A stretch of 64,000 nt of DNA from Conyzicola nivalis (GTDB lineage Bacteria > Actinomycetota > Actinomycetes > Actinomycetales > Microbacteriaceae), in contig NZ_BMGB01000001.1 in assembly GCF_014639655.1 (NCBI RefSeq), positions 1,690,882-1,754,881 on the forward strand, in the 5' to 3' direction. Below are positions 20,064 through 29,756 of this stretch, one piece after another. The notes beneath the pieces are model-generated. The model ran no database searches, had not been told where the DNA came from, and worked only from the letters and a program-made list of their open reading frames with translations. A program made the position numbers and the translations under genes. Each line of letters begins with the position of its first letter. The first letter of the stretch is position 1.

Positions 20064-20136
20064 GCGCCGATGCTAGCGCGACCGCGGAATTATCGACACG
20101 CGCCGCGTAGCGTTCAGGGTTACGATTGACGCTCGC

Positions 20137-20198: not shown

Positions 20199-20771
20199 GT
20201 GACCGAGCTGGCTCCCCAGGTCAAGGCGGTCCGCGGTCGGGCGATCGACGCGCGCATCCTCAGCGTGACGCTCGACATACTGCGTGGTCACGGCCCGGCC
20301 GCCGTGAACATCGAGGCCGTCGCCGCGAAGGCCGGCATCGCGAAAACGACCATCTACCGTCGCTACGACTCGCGCGAGCACCTGCTGCGGGCGGCGATCG
20401 AGTCGTCCACGGGCGAGGTCGCCATCCCGACCGACCTGCCCACCTACGAGACGTTCAAATGGCTGCTGCACGATGCGGCACGGATGGCCGAGAACATGGT
20501 GGGGCGGGGCGCCGCGGCATCCATCATCCTCAACGACCATCCCGAATCGAACGACCTGATGCGCGAGATGATCAAGGCCCGCTCGGTGCGGCTCACCGAG
20601 TTTCTGCACGAGCGGGTGGCGGCGGGCGACCTCAAGGCCGACCTCGACATCGGCCTCGCCGCCACCGTGCTGCTCGGCGCCCTCTTCGGGCAGCTGATCC
20701 GCGGCGGCGAGCTCGACGACGAGTGGGCAGACTCCGTGCTGGAGCTGCTCTGGCCGGGATTCTCGGCGTGA
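20199..20771 (+). CDS. TetR-family transcriptional regulator
   Basis: 190 aa. The N-terminal HTH reads VNIEAVAAKAGIAKTTIYRRYDSREHLLRAAI (about residues 33-64), followed by a helical ligand domain ending in LLGALFGQLIRGG typical of the C-terminal TetR_C_16-like group. The start is GTG 20199 after GCGGAGGGA. It is divergent from the LysE exporter and convergent with the ether-lipid operon, 7 bp between stops. Likely target: itself and/or the exporter. Confidence 0.9.
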   Translation: MTELAPQVKAVRGRAIDARILSVTLDILRGHGPAAVNIEAVAAKAGIAKTTIYRRYDSREHLLRAAIESSTGEVAIPTDLPTYETFKWLLHDAARMAENMVGRGAAASIILNDHPESNDLMREMIKARSVRLTEFLHERVAAGDLKADLDIGLAATVLLGALFGQLIRGGELDDEWADSVLELLWPGFSA

Positions 20772-20778
20772 TAACCGT

Positions 20779-22440
20779 TTAGTAGGTGATCACCTTGTCG
20801 GGGTTGAAGTTCTTCTTCGGGTCGGCAGCGGTGAACAGCCCGCTCATCAGCGCGACACCCTCGGTGGAGATGTCCTGCTCTAGCCAGGGCGCGTGCTCGC
20901 GACCGACACCGTGGTGGTGCGAGATCGTTCCGCCGTGGTCGACGAACGCCTGCTGGATGGCGCGCTTCACGACGTCGTACTGCGCGATCGCGGTGTCGCC
21001 GCCGTGCACGAAGGCGAACGTGAAGTAGAGGCAGGCCCCCGAGTGGTACGAGTGCGAGAGGTGGCTCATAATCCAGCCGGGCGTGCCGATCTGCTCGTAG
21101 GCCTCGTTCGCCGCCGCATACACGGCGTCGTGGATCTCGTTGAGGCGCGACCAGGGCGCGGCCGTCTCCGACACGTCGGCCGCGGCACCGCGGTCGAGCA
21201 GGAAGTCGCGCAGGTACGGGGTGTCGAACTTCTTCTGGTCGTAGAGCACGCCGGGGCCCTTGCCCACGCCGAGTCCGCCGTGCTTCTTCACGATGCGCGC
21301 GACGATCTTCTTCTCGTAGGCGACGTGGGACTTGCTGCCCTCGAAGCCGATGAACGACAGGTTGATGCCCTCGAGGTCCCAGCCGCGACGCTTCAGGTAG
21401 GCCATCAGGACCTTCTGCGGGTCGAAGCCGGTCTTCGCCTTGCCGGTGGCGAACGAGAAGCCGCTCTCGCGGGCGTCGGAGACGCGGGTCACGGTCGGTC
21501 GGGCGTCGCTCTCAGAGATCTCGTGCATCGCGGCGATGCCAGCCTCCCAGTTCGGGAAGAGGTAGCCGTTGATCTCGCGCACCTCGGGGGTGCGGTGCAC
21601 CTGCACGGTGACCTCGGTGATGACACCGAGCCTGCCCTCACTGCCGAGGATCATCTCGCGCACGCTCGGCCCGGTGGAGGCGGAGGGAACGGGACGGATG
21701 TCGACGATGCCGGCCGGGCGCACCATGCGCAGGCCGCGGGCGATGTCGGCGATGTCGCCGTACTTGTCGCTCTGCATCCCCGACGAGCGGGTGGCCACCC
21801 AGCCGCCGAGGGTGGAGTGGGTGAAGCTGTCGGGGAAGTGGCCCATCGTCCAGCCCCGCGCGCCCAGCTGCTCCTCGATGAACGGTCCCTGCGCGCCGGC
21901 TTGGATGCGGGCGAGGCCAGAGCCCTCGTCGATGGAGACGACCTTGTTCAGGCGTCCGAGGTCGAGCGAGATGACGACGCGGGCCTCGCCCGGGTGTGGC
22001 TCGAGGCTGCCCGAGATGTTGCTGCCGCCGCCGAAGGGGATGATCACGGCGTTGGCCGCCACGGCGGCGGAGACCACGGCGGAGACCTCGGCCTCGTCGG
22101 CCGGGTAGACGACGACGTCGGGCATGCGCGGCAGGTCGCTCGCACGGATGCGCAGCAGGTCGCGGATGCTCTTGCCGTAGGTGTGCACGAGGCGCAGCTC
22201 GTCGTCGACGATCGCGTTGTCGGTGCCGACGATGGCACCGAGCTCGGCGAGGAACGCCTGGTCGATCGTGCTCGACGGCAGCGTCAGGTCGGAGAAGGAG
22301 ACGCTCGAGCCGGCGCTGCCGTCGAGCTCGAGTCCGACGGCCTTCTTCACGAAGGGGGCGAATGCGGGCTTGTTGTCGTAGGTGAACGCGATTCCTTCGA
22401 CTCCCCAGCCCCACCACTTCATGTGCTTGACGTTCGCCAT
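20779..22440 (-). CDS. Alkyl-dihydroxyacetonephosphate synthase homologue (FAD-linked)
   Basis: 553 aa, related to AGPS, the enzyme that swaps the acyl group of acyl-DHAP for a fatty alcohol to form an ether bond. AGPS landmarks are the N-terminal HMKWWGWG (6-13), the PCMH FAD loop PFGGGSNISG (135-144), GHFPDSFTHSTLGGW (200-214), RSSGM, GSEGRLGVIT (266-275) and the catalytic HHH at 508-510 in SHHHGVG. Tyr and His equivalents of the AGPS active site appear intact. It is third in a minus-strand operon after the SDR and acyltransferase. Actinobacteria also carry AGPS-like oxidases of unknown role, so the exact reaction is inferred from context. Confidence 0.88.
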   Translation of the reverse strand: MANVKHMKWWGWGVEGIAFTYDNKPAFAPFVKKAVGLELDGSAGSSVSFSDLTLPSSTIDQAFLAELGAIVGTDNAIVDDELRLVHTYGKSIRDLLRIRASDLPRMPDVVVYPADEAEVSAVVSAAVAANAVIIPFGGGSNISGSLEPHPGEARVVISLDLGRLNKVVSIDEGSGLARIQAGAQGPFIEEQLGARGWTMGHFPDSFTHSTLGGWVATRSSGMQSDKYGDIADIARGLRMVRPAGIVDIRPVPSASTGPSVREMILGSEGRLGVITEVTVQVHRTPEVREINGYLFPNWEAGIAAMHEISESDARPTVTRVSDARESGFSFATGKAKTGFDPQKVLMAYLKRRGWDLEGINLSFIGFEGSKSHVAYEKKIVARIVKKHGGLGVGKGPGVLYDQKKFDTPYLRDFLLDRGAAADVSETAAPWSRLNEIHDAVYAAANEAYEQIGTPGWIMSHLSHSYHSGACLYFTFAFVHGGDTAIAQYDVVKRAIQQAFVDHGGTISHHHGVGREHAPWLEQDISTEGVALMSGLFTAADPKKNFNPDKVITY

Positions 22441-22497
22441 GGTTCCACTTTCTTGTGACGCTGATTCGGTACGGGGTCTGATTCGAGACGGCTGAGG

Positions 22498-23190
22498 CTA
22501 CGCGGAGTGCGCCGCGTGCAGGTCCAACACCGTGCGGTGCAGTCTTGCAGAGAAATCGGCGGGGCTCTCGCCCGGCTCGGCGATCATGGGCTCGCCGAAG
22601 ACGACCACGACGGGTGGGCGGCCCGGTACCGGCCAGTTGCGGCCGGGCGGCATGGCGTCGGCGGCCCCGATGATCGCGACCGGCACGCACGGCGCCCCGA
22701 CGTGCATAGAGAGCACGGCGGCGCCCGGCTTGAACGGGCCGATGATTCCGTCCTTCGACCGTCCGCCCTGCGGGAAGATCAGCAGCGGCACGCCGCGGCC
22801 GAGCAGCTCTTTCGCGAGGCCCGAGCGGGCGCCGCCCCCGCTGCGGTCGACGGGGAAGGCATTGAAGAACAGGGCGGTCGCGGCGCGGCGCCAGGCCACG
22901 TCGAAGAAGTAGTCGGCCGCGGCACCCGCGGCGAGATACCGCGCCCGCGCCCGCGGAAGGGCGCCGGTGATGAGGGGCGCATCCAGATGGCTCGAATGGT
23001 TCGCCACGACGATGAACGGGTCTTTCAGGTCTTTGAGGGTGTCTTTGCCCTTGACCGTCACCTTGGCCACCGACCAGACGACGCCCTTCAGGATGACGCG
23101 CTGGGCGATGAACCGCGCCGCGGCGTGACCCGACGACGAGAACCGGTGGAGGTGCGTGACCTTCACCGGCTTGGCGTCTTTGCCCGTCAT
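22498..23190 (-). CDS. PlsC-family acyltransferase with variant block III
   Basis: 230 aa, LPLAT superfamily. Catalytic block I is NHSSHLD (His65-x4-Asp70), block IV-like GPFKPGAAVLSM follows, and VPVAIIG lies near the C-terminus. Block III, normally FPEGTRS, reads FPQGGRS at 139-145, replacing the usual Glu with Gln. ATG 23190 overlaps the SDR stop by 4 bp (ATGA). In this operon it may acylate DHAP or alkylglycerol-3-phosphate, supplying the substrate of, or using the product of, the AGPS-like enzyme. A housekeeping lysophosphatidate acyltransferase role is possible. Confidence 0.87.
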   Translation of the reverse strand: MTGKDAKPVKVTHLHRFSSSGHAAARFIAQRVILKGVVWSVAKVTVKGKDTLKDLKDPFIVVANHSSHLDAPLITGALPRARARYLAAGAAADYFFDVAWRRAATALFFNAFPVDRSGGGARSGLAKELLGRGVPLLIFPQGGRSKDGIIGPFKPGAAVLSMHVGAPCVPVAIIGAADAMPPGRNWPVPGRPPVVVVFGEPMIAEPGESPADFSARLHRTVLDLHAAHSA

Positions 23191-23972
23191 GCGTGGGTCT
23201 CGACAGAGTCGCTGCGGCTCGACGAGATCTTGCCGGAGATCCAGCGCACGACGCCGCGTGGCAGGTGGTTCACGATGAAGAAGAGGAATTTGAAGCGCGC
23301 GGAGGGGATGACCAGGGCGCGCCCCTTCTCCGAGGCGCGGAGTCCGGACTCGATCGTCAGGCCCGCGTCGATCCAGAGGGCGTTCGGGATCGAACTCGTC
23401 GTGATGCCGGCGCGGTCGTGGAACTCGGTGTGCACCCAGCCGGGCAGCAGCGCCGTGACGCGCACGCCGGTGCCGCGGAGTTCGACCGAGAGCCCCTCGC
23501 TGTAGCTGCGCACCCAGGCCTTGACCGCGGAGTAGCTGCCCATCGCCATGTACCCGGCGACGCTCGAGACGTTGATGATGGCCCCGTCGCCCCTGGCCCG
23601 CATGGCGCGGCCGGCCGCCCCGCCGAGGACGAGCACCGACCGGATCATCACCTCGATGGCGCGATCGTGCGAGCTCGTGTCGACGGAGGTGAGCGGCGTG
23701 TGGATGCCGAACCCCGCGTTGTTGACGAAGACGTCGATGGGGCGGGCGGCATCCGTCAGTCTGTCGACGACCACCCCGACATCGGTGCGGTCGCTGAGGT
23801 CTGCACGCAGCGTCTCGACCGAGCGGCCCGTCGCGCGCAGTTCTGCCGCCATCGAATCGAGCCGTTCCGGGTTTCTCGCGACGAGCACGAGATCGTATCC
23901 ACGACGGGCGAGGGCCCGGGCGAACTCCGCTCCGAGGCCCGACGTCCCACCCGTGACGAGAGCAGTTGCCAT
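23187..23972 (-). CDS. SDR with hydrophobic C-terminus, candidate acyl/alkyl-DHAP reductase
   Basis: 261 aa. TGGTSGLG is at 7-14, NNAG at 84-87, and Tyr147/Lys151 (YSAVK) with Ser136/137 form the active site. Arg33 after the second strand (LVARNPER) suggests NADPH use. The C-terminal FKFLFFIVNHLPRGVVRW is amphipathic to hydrophobic, suggesting membrane association, as in yeast Ayr1-type 1-acyl-DHAP reductases. I start at ATG 23972 (MATALVTGG); a 27-codon upstream extension would run into the divergent operon's leader. First gene of the minus-strand operon. Confidence 0.88.
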   Translation of the reverse strand: MATALVTGGTSGLGAEFARALARRGYDLVLVARNPERLDSMAAELRATGRSVETLRADLSDRTDVGVVVDRLTDAARPIDVFVNNAGFGIHTPLTSVDTSSHDRAIEVMIRSVLVLGGAAGRAMRARGDGAIINVSSVAGYMAMGSYSAVKAWVRSYSEGLSVELRGTGVRVTALLPGWVHTEFHDRAGITTSSIPNALWIDAGLTIESGLRASEKGRALVIPSARFKFLFFIVNHLPRGVVRWISGKISSSRSDSVETHA

Positions 23973-24054
23973 TCGGACAGGATACGCTACGCGGCCCGTA
24001 TCGTTGATCGAATAGACTTCGGTGCACCAGATTATTTCGGCGGGAAAGAGCAAC
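23973..24054. promoter_or_regulatory. 82-bp divergent promoter region of the ether-lipid cluster
   Basis: The only space from which both operons (SDR-acyltransferase-AGPS to the left, ferritin-like/reductase genes to the right) can be transcribed. AATAGACT at 24011-24018 could hold a plus-strand -10 box. I cannot define matching -35 boxes. The shared control region supports joint regulation. Confidence 0.4.
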
Positions 24055-24894
24055 GTGCACAGTCAGTCAGACGGCCCTCCCGTGGCCGTTCCCGCTCAGG
24101 GATTCAGTGTGCGCGACTACGCCCGCACCGCATCCGGCAGCCACCGCGGCGAGATGGATCTCGCCCCCTTCGCCGCGTCTCCCCTGCGCCCCGACACGCT
24201 GCGCGCCCTGCGCTACGTGGCCGCGGTCGAGAGCGGAACGATGGGTCATCTGCGCAACGTGCTCGTCACCGCGACCCACAAAGACGCCAGGGTCACCGCG
24301 TTTCTCGGCACCTGGGCCTTCGAGAAGTTCTGGATCGCCGACGCGCTCCAGCACGTTCTCGACGCCCACGACACGACCCTCCCCACGCCCAAGCAGCGAT
24401 CGCGCGTCGCGGCCTTCTTCGGCGAGATCCGGGAGCGCGTGCGCCCCATCACCGGGTCGATCCGCGCCAACAAGCTCGGCGAAGACATGATCGCGGTGCA
24501 CATGACCCTCGGCACGATAGACGAGTGGATGACACAGGCTGCCCTGGCCCGCATCGTGGCTCTCGACCCCAACCCCGCGCTCGTCGCGATCGTCGACCGG
24601 CTCGTGGCCGTGCAGCAGCGCCAACTCGAATTCTTCGAGGCGCAGGCGCGCGACCGGCTCGCATTCGCCGAGCACACCCGTGTCACCGTCGCCCGCCAGA
24701 TCGCCGGAGCCCAGTGGCCCATCGGCGCCGAGGCCGAGGCGAAATCCGAGACCGACTTCTTCTACTCCTACCTCTTCGCCAGCGCCCCCGGCATCGCCGC
24801 GGCCATCGACGCGAAGATCTCCTCTCTCCCCGGCCAGGAAGGGCTCCCCCTCATTTCACGCGCAGTAGCAGCACACGGCGGTCGCGCCGCATGA
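24055..24894 (+). CDS. Ferritin-like protein lacking most diiron ligands
   Basis: 279 aa, all-helical, collinear with the protein encoded at 27175-27969. At the diiron positions it has Glu59, then Lys91/Ile94 in place of ExxH, Glu157, and Gln187/Gln190 in place of the second ExxH. Four of six ligands are thus lost and it should not bind a diiron centre. The flanking helices (AVHM, DEW, QARDRL) remain well conserved, so it is a folded paralogue, probably a structural or regulatory partner. Start GTG 24055 has GGGAAAGAG upstream; GTG 24022 is the alternative. The stop overlaps the reductase gene by 4 bp. Confidence 0.82.
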   Translation: MHSQSDGPPVAVPAQGFSVRDYARTASGSHRGEMDLAPFAASPLRPDTLRALRYVAAVESGTMGHLRNVLVTATHKDARVTAFLGTWAFEKFWIADALQHVLDAHDTTLPTPKQRSRVAAFFGEIRERVRPITGSIRANKLGEDMIAVHMTLGTIDEWMTQAALARIVALDPNPALVAIVDRLVAVQQRQLEFFEAQARDRLAFAEHTRVTVARQIAGAQWPIGAEAEAKSETDFFYSYLFASAPGIAAAIDAKISSLPGQEGLPLISRAVAAHGGRAA

Positions 24895-27185
24895 GTGCAG
24901 CAGAGAAGAAATCCGGCCTCGCCGGCGCCCACGTCTTCCTCACGGGAGCCACCGGTTTCGTCGGCCAGGCGGTGCTCGAGCGCCTGCTCTCGTCGTACCC
25001 CGACACCCGCGTCTCAATCCTCGTGCGCACGAAGGGCAGCGCCACCACCGAGACGCGCCTCGCCAACCTGCTGCGCAAGCCGGTGTTCTCGGCGTGGAAG
25101 GAGAAGGTCGGCGACGAAGAAGCCGCCCGCATTCTCGCCGAGCGCGTGACTGTCGTCTCGGGCAGTCTCACCTCGATCTCCGAGTTGCCCGGCGACATCG
25201 ATGTGGTGATCCACGGTGCATCCACCGTCTCGTTCGATCCGCCCATCGACGAGGCCTTCGACACCAACGTCGGCGGCGCTCTCGGCCTCTACGGCGCACT
25301 GCTGGCTTCCGGCTCCGACCCGCACGTCGTGCACGTCTCCACCTGTTACGTCGGCGGCATCCGCAAGGGCATCATGCCCGAGGCGTCGCTCACCCACGAG
25401 GTCGACTGGCGAGCCGAGGCCGCCTCGGCAGCGAAGGCGCGCGAACAGGTCGAGCTGGCCTCGCGCGAGCCCGAGAGCCTGCGGCGGTTCATCAACCGTT
25501 CGCGTGCCGTGAACGGCAAGGCCGGGCCGCAGGCCGTCGCCCGTGCCGCCGAGACCGCCCGCGCCGAGTGGGTCACGAAAGAGCTGGTCGACTACGGCCG
25601 CACCCGCGCCGAGAGCCTCGGCTGGACCGACGTGTACACGCTCACCAAGGCCTTCGGCGAGCGCGCGGCCGAGGAGCTGTGGGCCCAGGCCGGCCACCGC
25701 CTCTCCGTGGTGCGACCCGCCATCATCGAGAGCGCGCTGCACCACCCGTTCCCCGGCTGGATCGACGGGTTCAAGGTCGCCGACCCGCTCATCCTCGCCT
25801 ACGGCCGCGGCCAGCTGCCCGACTTCCCCGGCCTGCCCGACTCGATCCTCGACATCATCCCGGTCGACTACGTCGTTAACGCCATCATCGCGGCGGCGGG
25901 CACCGATCCCGACCCGGCAGACCCGCAGTACTACCACGTCAACTCCGGCGCCTCGAACCCGCTGCCGTTCCACGAGATGTACGAGAACGTCAACGAGTTC
26001 TTCACCGCGAACCCGCTCCCCCACGAGGACGGCCACATCAGCGTCCCGCTCTGGCGCTTCCCGGGCGCCCGCAAGGTGGAGCGTGCGCTCAAGCGCCGCG
26101 AAGACATCGCCGAGTTCGCCGAACGCACCATCACCCGGCTGCCCTCCACCAAGCGCACCCAGAAGTGGCTCGACGGCGTGCACGTCAACCAGAACGCGCT
26201 CGAGACGCTGCGTGGCTACACCGAGCTCTACCGCGCCTACGTGCAGACCGAGATCATCTTCGACGACAGCAACGCGAAGAAGCTGCACAACTCGATCCCC
26301 GCGGAGATGCGGGCCGATCTCGGCTTCGACGTCGCCGCGATCGACTGGAACGACTACTTCCAGCGCGTGCATTTCCCCGCTATCACCGCTCTCACGAACG
26401 CGTTCGCGAACCGCCCGCAGGGAAACAAGCGTGCGCAGCGCGCCCTTCCCAAGCGGTCGGATGTCGTGGCCGTCTTCGATCTGGAAGGCACCGTTCTCGA
26501 GTCCAACCTCGTGCAGCAGTACCTCTGGCTGGGCATCACGAAGACGTTCATGGCGCGCGAGCTCGCCAGCCTGGCCGTCTCGATCCCGAAGTACCTGCGC
26601 GCGGAACGCCACGACCGCGGCGAGTTCATCCGCACGTTCATGCGCCGCTACGAGGGCATCAGGGTGTCGCGCATCGAGGCGCTCGTGCGCGGCCGGTTCG
26701 GCCGCCAGCTGATCAACCACGTCTACCCCGACGCGCTGCGCCGGGCTCAGGAGCACCGCGAGGCCGGCCACCGCACCGTGCTCGTCACCGGCACCATCGA
26801 CCTCATGACCACGCCGCTCGCGCCGTTCTTCGACGAGGTCGTCGCCGGCAGCATGCACGAGCGCGACGGTGTGCTCACCGGCTACCTCGCCACGCCCCCG
26901 CTCGTCGACGAGGCACGCGCCTCGTGGCTGCGCGAGTACGCGAAGCAGCACGGCCTGAACCTTAGCCAGTCCTACGGTTACGGCGATTCCCACGCCGACG
27001 TGCCCTGGTTGCAGCTGCTCGGCAACCCGACCGCGGTGAACCCCGACACCCAGCTCTACAGCCAGGCGCAGGCCAAACGGTGGACTATCCAGTCGTGGGC
27101 CACTACGGCCAAACTGGGACGGCCCTCCGCTCCGAACGCTTCGGTATCCCCGACCGACGAGAAAGCTGTCTCCCATGGCGTTTGA
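24891..27185 (+). CDS. Fatty-acyl reductase fused to a HAD-IB domain
   Basis: 764 aa. Residues 10-360 form an NAD(P)-binding_4 (male-sterility type) extended SDR with TGATGFVG (18-25), STCYVGG and Tyr249-x3-Lys253. Residues 360-510 resemble the C-terminal part of fatty-acyl reductases. Residues 520-740 are a SerB-like HAD-IB domain with FDLEGT (530-534), VTGT (632-635) and GDSHAD (699-704). The usual DxD of motif I is D530-L-E532. The reductase would make fatty alcohol from acyl-CoA or acyl-ACP, the co-substrate of an AGPS. The HAD substrate is unknown. It overlaps the neighbours by 4 and 11 bp. Confidence 0.87.
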   Translation: MSAAEKKSGLAGAHVFLTGATGFVGQAVLERLLSSYPDTRVSILVRTKGSATTETRLANLLRKPVFSAWKEKVGDEEAARILAERVTVVSGSLTSISELPGDIDVVIHGASTVSFDPPIDEAFDTNVGGALGLYGALLASGSDPHVVHVSTCYVGGIRKGIMPEASLTHEVDWRAEAASAAKAREQVELASREPESLRRFINRSRAVNGKAGPQAVARAAETARAEWVTKELVDYGRTRAESLGWTDVYTLTKAFGERAAEELWAQAGHRLSVVRPAIIESALHHPFPGWIDGFKVADPLILAYGRGQLPDFPGLPDSILDIIPVDYVVNAIIAAAGTDPDPADPQYYHVNSGASNPLPFHEMYENVNEFFTANPLPHEDGHISVPLWRFPGARKVERALKRREDIAEFAERTITRLPSTKRTQKWLDGVHVNQNALETLRGYTELYRAYVQTEIIFDDSNAKKLHNSIPAEMRADLGFDVAAIDWNDYFQRVHFPAITALTNAFANRPQGNKRAQRALPKRSDVVAVFDLEGTVLESNLVQQYLWLGITKTFMARELASLAVSIPKYLRAERHDRGEFIRTFMRRYEGIRVSRIEALVRGRFGRQLINHVYPDALRRAQEHREAGHRTVLVTGTIDLMTTPLAPFFDEVVAGSMHERDGVLTGYLATPPLVDEARASWLREYAKQHGLNLSQSYGYGDSHADVPWLQLLGNPTAVNPDTQLYSQAQAKRWTIQSWATTAKLGRPSAPNASVSPTDEKAVSHGV

Positions 27186-27969
27186 CATCGACAAGTACAC
27201 CGCGACCAGCGTCAACGTGAACTGGAGCGACCTCGACTTCGACGAGTTCAAAACGAACCCGTTGCCCGCATCGACGCTCCGCAGCCTGCGCTACATGTGC
27301 GACATCGAGTACCACACGGTCTGCTACCTGCGCGACATGCTCGTGACGCCGTCGCACAAGGACCCCGAGGTTTCGGCGTTTATGACCATGTGGAACCGCG
27401 AGGAGTTCTGGCACGGTGAGGCCCTCGCCGAGGTGCTGGGTGCGCACGGCATCACCGTCGACTTCGACCAGCTCAAGGCCACCCGCCTCAAGCTGGGCTG
27501 GAAAGACAAGCTGGATCCCGTGAAGCAGTCGCTGCTCGGCAACATCGTGGGCAAGGACTTCATCGCCGTGCACATGATCTGGGGGGCCGCAAACGAGTGG
27601 TCGGCCGTCGCCGCCTACAACCGCCTGGCCGAACTCGAGAAGCACCCGGTGCTGGCCGTGCTGCTCAAGCGCATCGCCAAGCAGGAGGCCAAGCACGTGG
27701 CCTTCTACGCCACCCAGGCGCGCGAGCGTCTGGCCAGCAGCAAGAAGGCGCGCGTTATCGCCCGCTTCGCGCTGAAGAAGGCGTGGGGGCCGGTCGGCTC
27801 GAGCGTCATGGAGCCCGAGGAGGTGACCCACGTGATGGGCCACCTGTTCGCCGGCGAGGAGGGCATGCGTGAGATCCGCAAGCTCGACGACCACATCTCG
27901 CGGATGCCGGGGCTCGAGGGTCTCGAGATCGTGGAGACCGCGATGAAGAAGTACGGCGTCGCCGCCTAG
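27175..27969 (+). CDS. Ferritin-like diiron protein with complete E, ExxH, E, ExxH site
   Basis: 264 aa, four-helix bundle type. The ligand set is Glu45, Glu77-x2-His80 (EFWH), Glu141 (NEW) and Glu171-x2-His174 (EAKH), the same arrangement as soluble acyl-ACP desaturases and aldehyde-deformylating oxygenases. It should activate O2 on a long-chain substrate: possible roles are desaturation of an alkyl or acyl chain (including vinyl-ether formation) or hydroxylation. Its start overlaps the reductase-HAD gene by 11 bp. It is last in the plus-strand operon and paralogous to the protein at 24055-24894. Confidence 0.85.
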   Translation: MAFDIDKYTATSVNVNWSDLDFDEFKTNPLPASTLRSLRYMCDIEYHTVCYLRDMLVTPSHKDPEVSAFMTMWNREEFWHGEALAEVLGAHGITVDFDQLKATRLKLGWKDKLDPVKQSLLGNIVGKDFIAVHMIWGAANEWSAVAAYNRLAELEKHPVLAVLLKRIAKQEAKHVAFYATQARERLASSKKARVIARFALKKAWGPVGSSVMEPEEVTHVMGHLFAGEEGMREIRKLDDHISRMPGLEGLEIVETAMKKYGVAA

Positions 27970-28022: not shown

Positions 28023-28211
28023 ATGCGCGCAACGGTGGGCGAACGGATCGTCATCCACGGCAAGAACGTCGGGTCTCCCGACCGCCACGGGGAGATAGCC
28101 GAAGTTCGGGGGAACGACGGCGACCCGCCGTATCTGGTCAAGTTCGACGACGGGCATGAGTCACTGGTCTTCCCCGGTCCGGACTGCTCGCTCGAGCGGC
28201 TCGCAACGTAG
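28023..28211 (+). CDS. DUF1918 small protein
   Basis: 62 aa, MRATVGERIVIHGKNVGSPD onward, with the conserved RHGEIAEVRG and PPYLVKFDDGHESLVFPGPD of DUF1918, a beta-rich SH3-like family of actinobacteria with no known function. GAGGTG at 28011-28016 is the ribosome site for ATG 28023. Its last 74 bp overlap the 3' end of the convergent membrane-protein gene. Confidence 0.85.
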   Translation: MRATVGERIVIHGKNVGSPDRHGEIAEVRGNDGDPPYLVKFDDGHESLVFPGPDCSLERLAT

Positions 28212-28833
28212 CGAGCACCGCGACGCCGATCAGCAGCTGCCACACGGTCACGGAGTACACGCCGCCGCGCTCCCACAGCCCGTCGAACCGCACGTCCGAG
28301 AGCCCGGCGAGAAGCACACCCTCGCTCAGCAGACCGACGACGGGCAGCACCACGCTCGCGACCGAGAACCAGCGCGGCAGGCCCGCGCGCACCGCGGCGA
28401 CGCCGGCCACGAGCGCGGTCAGGTTGCCGAAGACGATCGCCAGCAGCGCCCCGATCAGGTGCAGCGGACCGGCATCCGCGGCCTCGTTGAAGAGCCCGAC
28501 CAGCACGATGCCCACGCCGTGGAGCACGGCGAACCCCACGAAGAGCCAGCGGGAGACGCCCCGGAACAGCACCGCGAGCAGCACGGCACCGAGAACGAAG
28601 AACACGCCCTCGAGCACGAACCCGGTGTTCATCACCCAGGCCAGCGGTGAGTAGACGTCCCGCCCGCCGTAGATCTGGGCGTCCGGTACGCCGAGGTCGC
28701 TGATGTAGTTGGCCGCGTGGTCGTAACGCGGCTCGATCCAGGCCGCGGCCGCGACGGCCTCGAGCGTGACGTACTGCAACGCGCCGACGATGAACGCCAG
28801 GGCTCCCGCTGAACAGCGCCCCGAGACCGTCAT
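28138..28833 (-). CDS. DUF998-type multi-pass membrane protein
   Basis: 231 aa with about six helices. The segment YDHAANYISDLGVPDAQIYGGRDVYSPLA, just after helix 1, is typical of DUF998 membrane proteins (function unknown). ATG 28833 shares one base with the stop of the upstream esterase gene (TGATG), showing co-translation. The hydrophilic C-terminus overlaps the DUF1918 gene on the other strand. Confidence 0.82.
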   Translation of the reverse strand: MTVSGRCSAGALAFIVGALQYVTLEAVAAAAWIEPRYDHAANYISDLGVPDAQIYGGRDVYSPLAWVMNTGFVLEGVFFVLGAVLLAVLFRGVSRWLFVGFAVLHGVGIVLVGLFNEAADAGPLHLIGALLAIVFGNLTALVAGVAAVRAGLPRWFSVASVVLPVVGLLSEGVLLAGLSDVRFDGLWERGGVYSVTVWQLLIGVAVLATLRAARASSPDRGRPVTHARRRT

Positions 28834-29756
28834 CACAGGCGCCACTCGTCCGCGGCGAGCACCGCCTCGATCACCGCGCGTGCCTCGGCCCCCTCGGGAA
28901 TCGGCAGCAGCGGATACACGTGGAGCATGTTCGCCCGCTGGTGGAAGTCGAGCGGGTGACCCTCGGCCCGTGCCTTCTTCGCCAGCGTGATCGCGTCGGC
29001 GTGGGTGATGTCGCGTGTGCCGCTGAACAGCGTGATGCGACCGATGCCGGCGAGCGGGGCGTTCACGGGGCTCACGAACGGGTGCTCGATCGGCAGGTCG
29101 CCGCGCCAGACCTCGGCGGCCGCCTTGGGACCCGGCACGTTCAGCCACGGGTCGCGCGGCTCGATCTCGTAGGTCAGCGGATCGCTGAAGGTGAGGTCGA
29201 TCACCGGCGAGATGAGCACGATGTCACGGGGCGCGGGCACACCGCGGTCGCGCAGCAGCATGGCCGCGGAAAGCGCGATGGTTCCGCCGGCGGAGTCGCC
29301 GAGGATAAGAACCGCGGATGAACCGGCCTCCGCCACGAGCTCGGCCGCGAGATCGGCGACCACCGGCACGACCTCGCCGGCCGTTCCCCGCGGTACGAGC
29401 GGATAGATCGGCACGGTGAACTCGGTGCCCGTGTTCACCGCGAGGCGCGCGATCAGCCACCAGTGGAACGGAGAGATCTCGTGCACCCACGCGCCACCGT
29501 GCACGTAGAGTGCCCGGCGGTTGACCGGGCTCTCGCGCGGCGTCAGGGTGTAGACCGGCCATCCGGCCACCCGGCGCACCGTGATGCGCACGGTTTTGTC
29601 GATGTTCTTCGGCGGCGCGAACGACTCCGGGCGCAGCACGTGGTCCGCCGCGAGGCGCATCGTGAGGTCGGGCGACGAGAACTCGCGCTTGCTCCCCCTC
29701 GCGCGCATGATCGGGGTCAGCAGGGCGGAACGGAGGCTTTGTCGCGAATGAGTCAC
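28833..29756 (-). CDS. Alpha/beta hydrolase, acetyl-esterase (HSL/Aes) family
   Basis: 307 aa. Oxyanion-hole motif is YVHGGAWVHE, the nucleophile elbow GDSAGG, and the acid/His pair is expected in SGTRDITHAD and ANMLHVYPLLP. It hydrolyses short-chain esters; cytoplasmic, no signal peptide. It is co-directional and overlapping with the DUF998 gene, so the two probably act together on a lipid or ester substrate. Specificity cannot be told. Confidence 0.9.
   Translation of the reverse strand: MTHSRQSLRSALLTPIMRARGSKREFSSPDLTMRLAADHVLRPESFAPPKNIDKTVRITVRRVAGWPVYTLTPRESPVNRRALYVHGGAWVHEISPFHWWLIARLAVNTGTEFTVPIYPLVPRGTAGEVVPVVADLAAELVAEAGSSAVLILGDSAGGTIALSAAMLLRDRGVPAPRDIVLISPVIDLTFSDPLTYEIEPRDPWLNVPGPKAAAEVWRGDLPIEHPFVSPVNAPLAGIGRITLFSGTRDITHADAITLAKKARAEGHPLDFHQRANMLHVYPLLPIPEGAEARAVIEAVLAADEWRL

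Follow-up and report, generated by a model that had tools for sequence, protein, structure and literature searches.

Gene content and regulation of the locus

The window analysed here, a stretch of 64,000 nucleotides from the genome of Conyzicola nivalis, carries six genes at positions 20779-27969 which are arranged as two divergent operons on either side of an 82-bp promoter region (23973-24054). The minus strand encodes a short-chain dehydrogenase/reductase (SDR; 23187-23972, 261 aa; Pfam adh_short, 4e-43) and a PlsC-type acyltransferase (22498-23190, 230 aa; Pfam Acyltransferase, 1e-19), the genes overlapping by 4 bp, followed by an alkyl-DHAP synthase (AGPS; 20779-22440, 553 aa), an FAD enzyme of the VAO fold which matches the solved structures 2uuu and 4bby. 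On the plus strand are DI1 (24055-24894, 279 aa), a degenerate diiron-fold paralogue of DI2; a 764-aa fusion (FAR-HAD; 24891-27185) of a fatty-acyl reductase (FAR, approximately 24918-26384) to a HAD-IB phosphatase (approximately 26466-27053); and the diiron protein DI2 (27175-27969, 264 aa), in which no ligand of the E / ExxH / E / ExxH pattern is missing. The FAR-HAD gene overlaps that of DI1 by 4 bp and that of DI2 by 11 bp. These six open reading frames had been recognised in the initial annotation, and matches in Pfam, NCBIfam and among solved structures confirm both that they are real and that they belong to the families then named. The length of the divergent gap also holds, given that the GTG at 24055 is taken as the start of DI1; a further in-frame GTG lies at 24022. 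Just downstream of the cluster, the minus strand carries a DUF998 membrane protein (28138-28740) and a hormone-sensitive-lipase-type esterase (28833-29756), neither of which is conserved with it.

What the annotation overlooked in its six-gene unit is a seventh gene, encoding a TetR-family regulator (20199-20771, plus strand, 190 aa; Pfam TetR_N, 3e-10, and TetR_C_11) and convergent with AGPS across a gap of 7 bp, together with two palindromic operator sites. The first, the predicted TetR operator CGCTACGcggccCGTATCG (23985-24003), sits in the SDR/DI1 promoter, has the form CGCTACG-N5-CGTAGCG and is conserved in TetR-bearing loci; the second, CGACACGCGCCGCGTAGCG (20094-20112), lies upstream of the TetR gene and, with two mismatches to that form, is a probable operator.

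The conservation of these elements was followed in a scan with the DI2 alignment, one genome per species, which gave 289 confirmed relatives, the best 80 loci being kept. A TetR homologue is present in 32 of these best 80 of 289, and a site with no more than two mismatches accompanies it in all 32, as against six of the 48 loci without the gene, two of which (L037 and L053) end before the TetR position. The site at 23985-24003 is the sole zero-mismatch match to CGCTACGN5CGTAKCG in its own genome, and perfect sites in whole genomes occur almost only at the cluster. Upstream of TetR, at the position matching 20094-20112, the palindrome is perfect in the close relative G001 (CGCTACGCCGGGCGTAGCG), and in the Plantibacter loci (L038-L041) an operator site is found upstream of TetR as well. 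No match to the sigma-70 consensus was found in the 82-bp region. Hairpin formation by the promoter DNA was considered and is unsupported (z +1.34), and the palindrome is thus read as a protein site. On account of the operator conservation, TetR and both operons are taken to form one unit, and it is proposed that TetR acts on the palindromes in the divergent promoter and upstream of its own gene, the binding itself being inferred.

Distribution and modular structure of the cluster

All six genes occur together in 62 of the 80 loci (the best 80 of 289), 60 of them with identical order and strands, and these 62 span the Microbacteriaceae, Phytoactinopolyspora, Streptomyces and the Ruaniaceae; the cluster is not a chance grouping. 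The next most conserved neighbours in the same best 80 are TetR and then diacylglycerol kinase (13 loci), and when the open reading frames of nine loci were compared with those of all 80, no gene beyond the six reached the same breadth of conservation. Genes for DAGK/YegS-type lipid kinases lie in or near the cluster at these 13 loci (e.g., L040:2297-3328, L036:2234-3175 and L097:10879-11982), whilst in the window genome the homologues are found only outside it (G000:C1:2235920, 1554709 and 1582585).

A wider comparison covered 296 genomes of the order Actinomycetales, with cut-offs of E<1e-150 for AGPS, E<1e-60 for FAR-HAD and E<1e-90 for DI2. AGPS and FAR-HAD were both present in 62 genomes and both absent from 228, with FAR-HAD alone in six and AGPS alone in none (p 2e-57); for DI2 and AGPS, 37 genomes had both, six DI2 only, 25 AGPS only and 228 neither (p 3e-24). 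These p-values are only indicative and overstate independence, as the sampled genomes are related. DI1/DI2 are found without AGPS or FAR-HAD in five of the 43 genomes of this sample which have DI2, and AGPS with FAR-HAD but no close DI2 in 25 of the 296. AGPS is missing genome-wide in Agromyces, Leifsonia Leaf264 and a further genome (G060) which carry the DI1/DI2 pair (L072, L074, L099 and L119); the neighbours of the pair in AGPS-less genomes (amine oxidase, ABC1 kinase, epoxide hydrolase) give no common hint of another substrate. The core stays clustered, in the order FAR-SDR-PlsC-AGPS, in Jiangella and in members of four other families (f12, f14, f3 and f7), where DI1/DI2 may lie next to it, lie at another site or be absent.

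The cluster is therefore composed of two modules, a core of FAR-HAD, SDR, PlsC and AGPS and the paralogous pair DI1/DI2. As to the earlier supposition that all six genes travel together, strict linkage is limited to the four core genes because a minority of genomes keep the DI pair without the ether core. The DI2 of one Microbacterium species (G130, K24) is 90% identical to that of the window, that of a genome of another family (G227) is 88% identical, and most sampled genomes of Microbacterium and of the latter family lack it; such high identity combined with patchy presence suggests, as an inference, that the cluster moved as a block.

The proposed ether-lipid core and the diiron pair

AGPS, for which the window genome has a single gene, combines an FAD-binding VAO fold with an FAD-oxidase_C domain and is similar over nearly its full length to solved AGPS enzymes (Dictyostelium ADPS, 2uuu, E=4e-117; guinea-pig AGPS, 4bby, 1e-87), whilst other FAD oxidases of the superfamily match at 5e-19 or worse. 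The motifs HMKWWGWG, GHFPDSF and SHHHGVG, picked out in the initial annotation, are present and near-invariant among relatives, and alignment to the solved enzymes likewise bears out its comparison with the mammalian active site. R319, R411, Y472 and H508-510 are the equivalents of guinea-pig R419, R515, Y578 and H615-H617, which we take to be the catalytic residues, and are invariant in an alignment of about 59-60 related loci. Judged by alignment, the homologue keeps every mammalian catalytic residue; activity in exchanging acyl for alkyl is inferred.

The FAR domain, whose earlier identification was correct as far as it went, matches the solved FAR 7eoz (E=8e-44), and the additional C-terminal HAD phosphatase domain had been missed (Pfam NAD_binding_4, 2e-44; Sterile, 2e-8; HAD, 1e-31). 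The FAR motifs TGxTGFxGQ and YxxxK are invariant in relatives; motif I of the HAD domain (26466-27053) reads D-x-E-G-T, not D-x-D-G-T, with the D and E kept in 64 of 64. In family f12 one stop codon falls inside the FAR-HAD match, and FAR and HAD may there be two separate genes. FAR, the gene for which is present wherever AGPS is, is proposed to supply the fatty alcohol, this product being inferred. The PlsC-type enzyme has HX4D, as do 64 of 64 relatives, and its motif III is FPEG in all 64 but FPQG in the window (residue 141) and in the sister genome G001, a Glu to Gln change which may alter activity or acceptor. The SDR conserves YxxxK and TGxxxGxG, its best NCBIfam match being a mycolate reductase at a score far under cut-off. 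Neither protein could be resolved to a DHAP-specific subfamily; the former is proposed to be a DHAP or sn-2 acyltransferase and the latter an alkyl-/acyl-DHAP reductase.

The single complete diiron ferritin-like protein described previously is DI2; there are, however, two paralogues, 32-33% identical, and the site in DI1 is incomplete. DI2 meets the carboxylate-bridged diiron pattern E/ExxH/E/ExxH, and its ligands E45, E77, H80, E141, E171 and H174 are kept in 47 of 47 sequences. DI1 fails this pattern: E77 is replaced by K or R in 40 of 40 sequences and E171 in 39 of 40 (Q in the window), and H80 by I, M, V, L or T, hydrophobic in nearly all. With E77, H80 and E171 lost in DI1, the idea that both proteins are active was rejected. 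The nearest folds to the DI2 model (pLDDT 85.5) are acyl-ACP desaturases (7t63, TM 0.61; 1afr) and then R2-like oxidases, and to the DI1 model (pLDDT 91) R2-like oxidases. DI2 thus shares fold and ligand pattern with the soluble acyl-ACP desaturases (FA_desaturase_2) and R2-like oxidases, yet has only around 15% identity to them, falls under the Pfam FA_desaturase_2 cut-off (19.9 bits against 22.7) and is paired with a ligand-less paralogue. Bacterial multicomponent monooxygenases have alpha and beta subunits which form a catalytic/metal-free pair, an arrangement which that of DI2 and DI1 resembles, and DI1 is probably a metal-free partner subunit of DI2, their physical association being inferred. 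In Jiangella (L058, L063-L065, L067, L070 and L080) a solo DI2-type protein occurs, with AGPS elsewhere; DI1 was not found in the four Jiangella genomes tested, and may thus not always be needed.

Plasmalogen markers and the proposed pathway

Dimethyl acetals (DMA) are the chemical mark of plasmalogens. The aerobe Subtercola vilae DB165 has 22% branched dimethyl acetals (i16:0, 17.0%; a15:0, 3.2%; a17:0, 1.9%) and no unsaturated acid in its tabulated profile (PMC5945732), as would be expected if desaturation enters vinyl ethers and not acyl chains; a role for DI2 as a classical acyl-chain desaturase is weakened by the same table. This strain (L097) carries all six genes, DI2 lying 2.6 kb downstream, and DMA are found in three further Subtercola species. 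The a15:0 DMA/aldehyde is reported from Frigoribacterium faeni and F. adelgis D8 (PMC12823222), and the Frigoribacterium MAGs L093 and L096 carry the cluster. For Kineococcus rubinsiae, a15:0 DMA was labelled 14:0 2-OH by MIDI according to its authors (PMC7472656), and such mislabelling may mean that DMA are under-reported. No DMA or 2-OH data for Herbiconiux, Plantibacter or Salinibacterium were found in the literature searched.

That the cluster makes ether lipids, as first suggested from the sequence, is supported by the gene linkage, the AGPS residues and the S. vilae DMA (PMC5945732), and is held here with considerable confidence; the vinyl-ether step is inferred. A plasmalogen is the probable end product, there being no lipid data for the window organism itself. 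The pathway which we consider likely is TetR-controlled and oxygen-dependent, follows the animal (DHAP) scheme and has plasmalogens as its most likely end point; it rests on gene content, catalytic residues, linkage and operator conservation as established from sequence, whilst every substrate, the order of the steps and the role of the HAD domain are inferred. FAR would form the fatty alcohol by reduction of a branched acyl-CoA or acyl-ACP, the PlsC-type enzyme would make acyl-DHAP or acylate sn-2 later, AGPS would exchange the acyl chain for the alcohol and the SDR would convert alkyl-DHAP to alkyl-G3P, after which general phospholipid enzymes would complete the lipid. DI2, complexed with metal-free DI1, would then introduce the C1'-C2' double bond into the alkyl chain, consuming O2 and electrons and giving the vinyl ether, and TetR would occupy the palindromes in the divergent promoter and its own. 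For DI1/DI2 a vinyl-ether (delta-1') desaturase with DI2 as the catalytic subunit is the best assignment, yet it has only an even chance of being correct and remains unproven, because the pair is also found without the core; the reaction is inferred.

It is possible, though rather unlikely, that the core yields saturated alkyl ethers only, with DI1/DI2 acting on another substrate (acyl chains, alcohols, or in a hydroxylation) and the DMA arising by other means. Both the occurrence of the pair without the core and the 25 genomes with the core but no close DI2 are in keeping with this. So is the finding that each of the seven genomes examined, that of S. vilae among them, encodes a PF00487 membrane fatty-acid desaturase outside the cluster, an enzyme which might itself form the vinyl ether. 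Kineococcus (G082, K. radiotolerans) is among these 25, having AGPS and FAR-HAD without close relatives of DI1/DI2, and as a DMA is reported from K. rubinsiae, another enzyme may serve in this genus. A candidate for the desaturase behind the Kineococcus dimethyl acetals is a distantly related diiron protein which belongs to no Pfam family, observed in this genus and other families (L131:4976-5983, L130:777-1892 and L128:3991-5901); the Kineococcus protein can be aligned to the ligand pattern of DI2, and FAR-HAD has a gene of this kind next to it in G204 and at L130. On the other hand, genomes with both modules often carry them side by side, as a single divergent unit with a single operator, and the tabulated profile of S. 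vilae shows none of the unsaturated acyl chains expected from an acyl desaturase (PMC5945732).

It is very improbable that an AGPS-like flavoenzyme has shifted to another reaction (e.g., as a hydroxy-acid oxidase), making the cluster product an unrelated lipid or natural product: FAD_binding_4/FAD-oxidase_C is admittedly a broad superfamily, and for this protein NCBIfam gives GlcD-type matches only and under cut-off, but its matches to solved AGPS surpass those to the superfamily's other FAD oxidases by some 70-100 orders of magnitude and the AGPS catalytic residues are all invariant in about 59 loci. Synthesis of alkanes or fatty alcohols, with reductase and diiron protein acting as acyl-ACP reductase and aldehyde-deformylating oxygenase, is scarcely tenable in spite of the presence of both proteins and of a DI2 structural match at rank 34 to 6d9f, with reported aldehyde-deformylating activity, and is rejected because AGPS, which with PlsC and SDR would be unaccounted for, is present and never found without FAR (296 genomes), the best structural matches of DI2 moreover being acyl-ACP desaturases.

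The preferred DHAP-type pathway resembles the animal peroxisomal/ER pathway (FAR1, GNPAT, AGPS, DHRS7B/PexRAP and PEDS1/TMEM189), in which the enzyme types of the four ether-forming steps are those of the core genes and oxygen-dependent desaturation comes last, as proposed here; it differs in being encoded by a single bacterial divergent cluster, in the fusion of FAR to a HAD phosphatase and in having as candidate desaturase a soluble-type diiron pair, whereas animals use the membrane protein TMEM189. In Myxococcus xanthus, likewise an aerobic host, AGPS adjoins FAR, an acyltransferase and an NAD(P) oxidoreductase (MXAN_1676-1674, with CarF; PMC9131029), but that operon is without the HAD fusion, DI1/DI2 and TetR. 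The Myxococcus ElbA-E operon combines a FAR-type domain, a HAD protein and an acyltransferase, as in the cluster; it has no AGPS, however, and ElbD contains domains for acyl-CoA synthetase and ACP which the cluster lacks. The anaerobic PlsA/PlsR route matches the proposal in product class (vinyl-ether lipids) but reduces a diacyl lipid directly, without DHAP or AGPS.

The contention that the route is distinct from both PlsA/PlsR and CarF/ElbD agrees with the outcome of searches for their components. PF09989 (DUF2229), presumably a marker for PlsA, was found in none of eight DI2-bearing genomes, S. vilae included, its positive control matching in four genomes. The ElbD multidomain architecture FAR-ACS-ACP-AT was not found in the cluster, where FAR is fused to HAD only. 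The CarF family (PF10520) was found neither in the cluster nor in these eight DI2-bearing genomes; this genome-wide absence should be considered with caution as the search was without a positive control. No description of the cluster was found in the literature searched, which left subscription journals largely uncovered.

Plasmalogen-type lipids were measured in S. vilae years ago without a known gene, and the animal enzyme for the vinyl-ether reaction was itself found only in 2019-2020. Whether DI1/DI2 are a heteromeric soluble-type diiron plasmanyl desaturase, independent in origin of CarF/TMEM189, and this cluster is the source of the Subtercola and Frigoribacterium plasmalogens is, on present evidence, evenly balanced. 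If true, aerobic actinobacteria would form vinyl ethers with an enzyme of a third kind, and the pair would represent a new enzyme class for the reaction, a soluble-type system which could prove more tractable than a membrane desaturase; the cluster provides a directly testable gene list.
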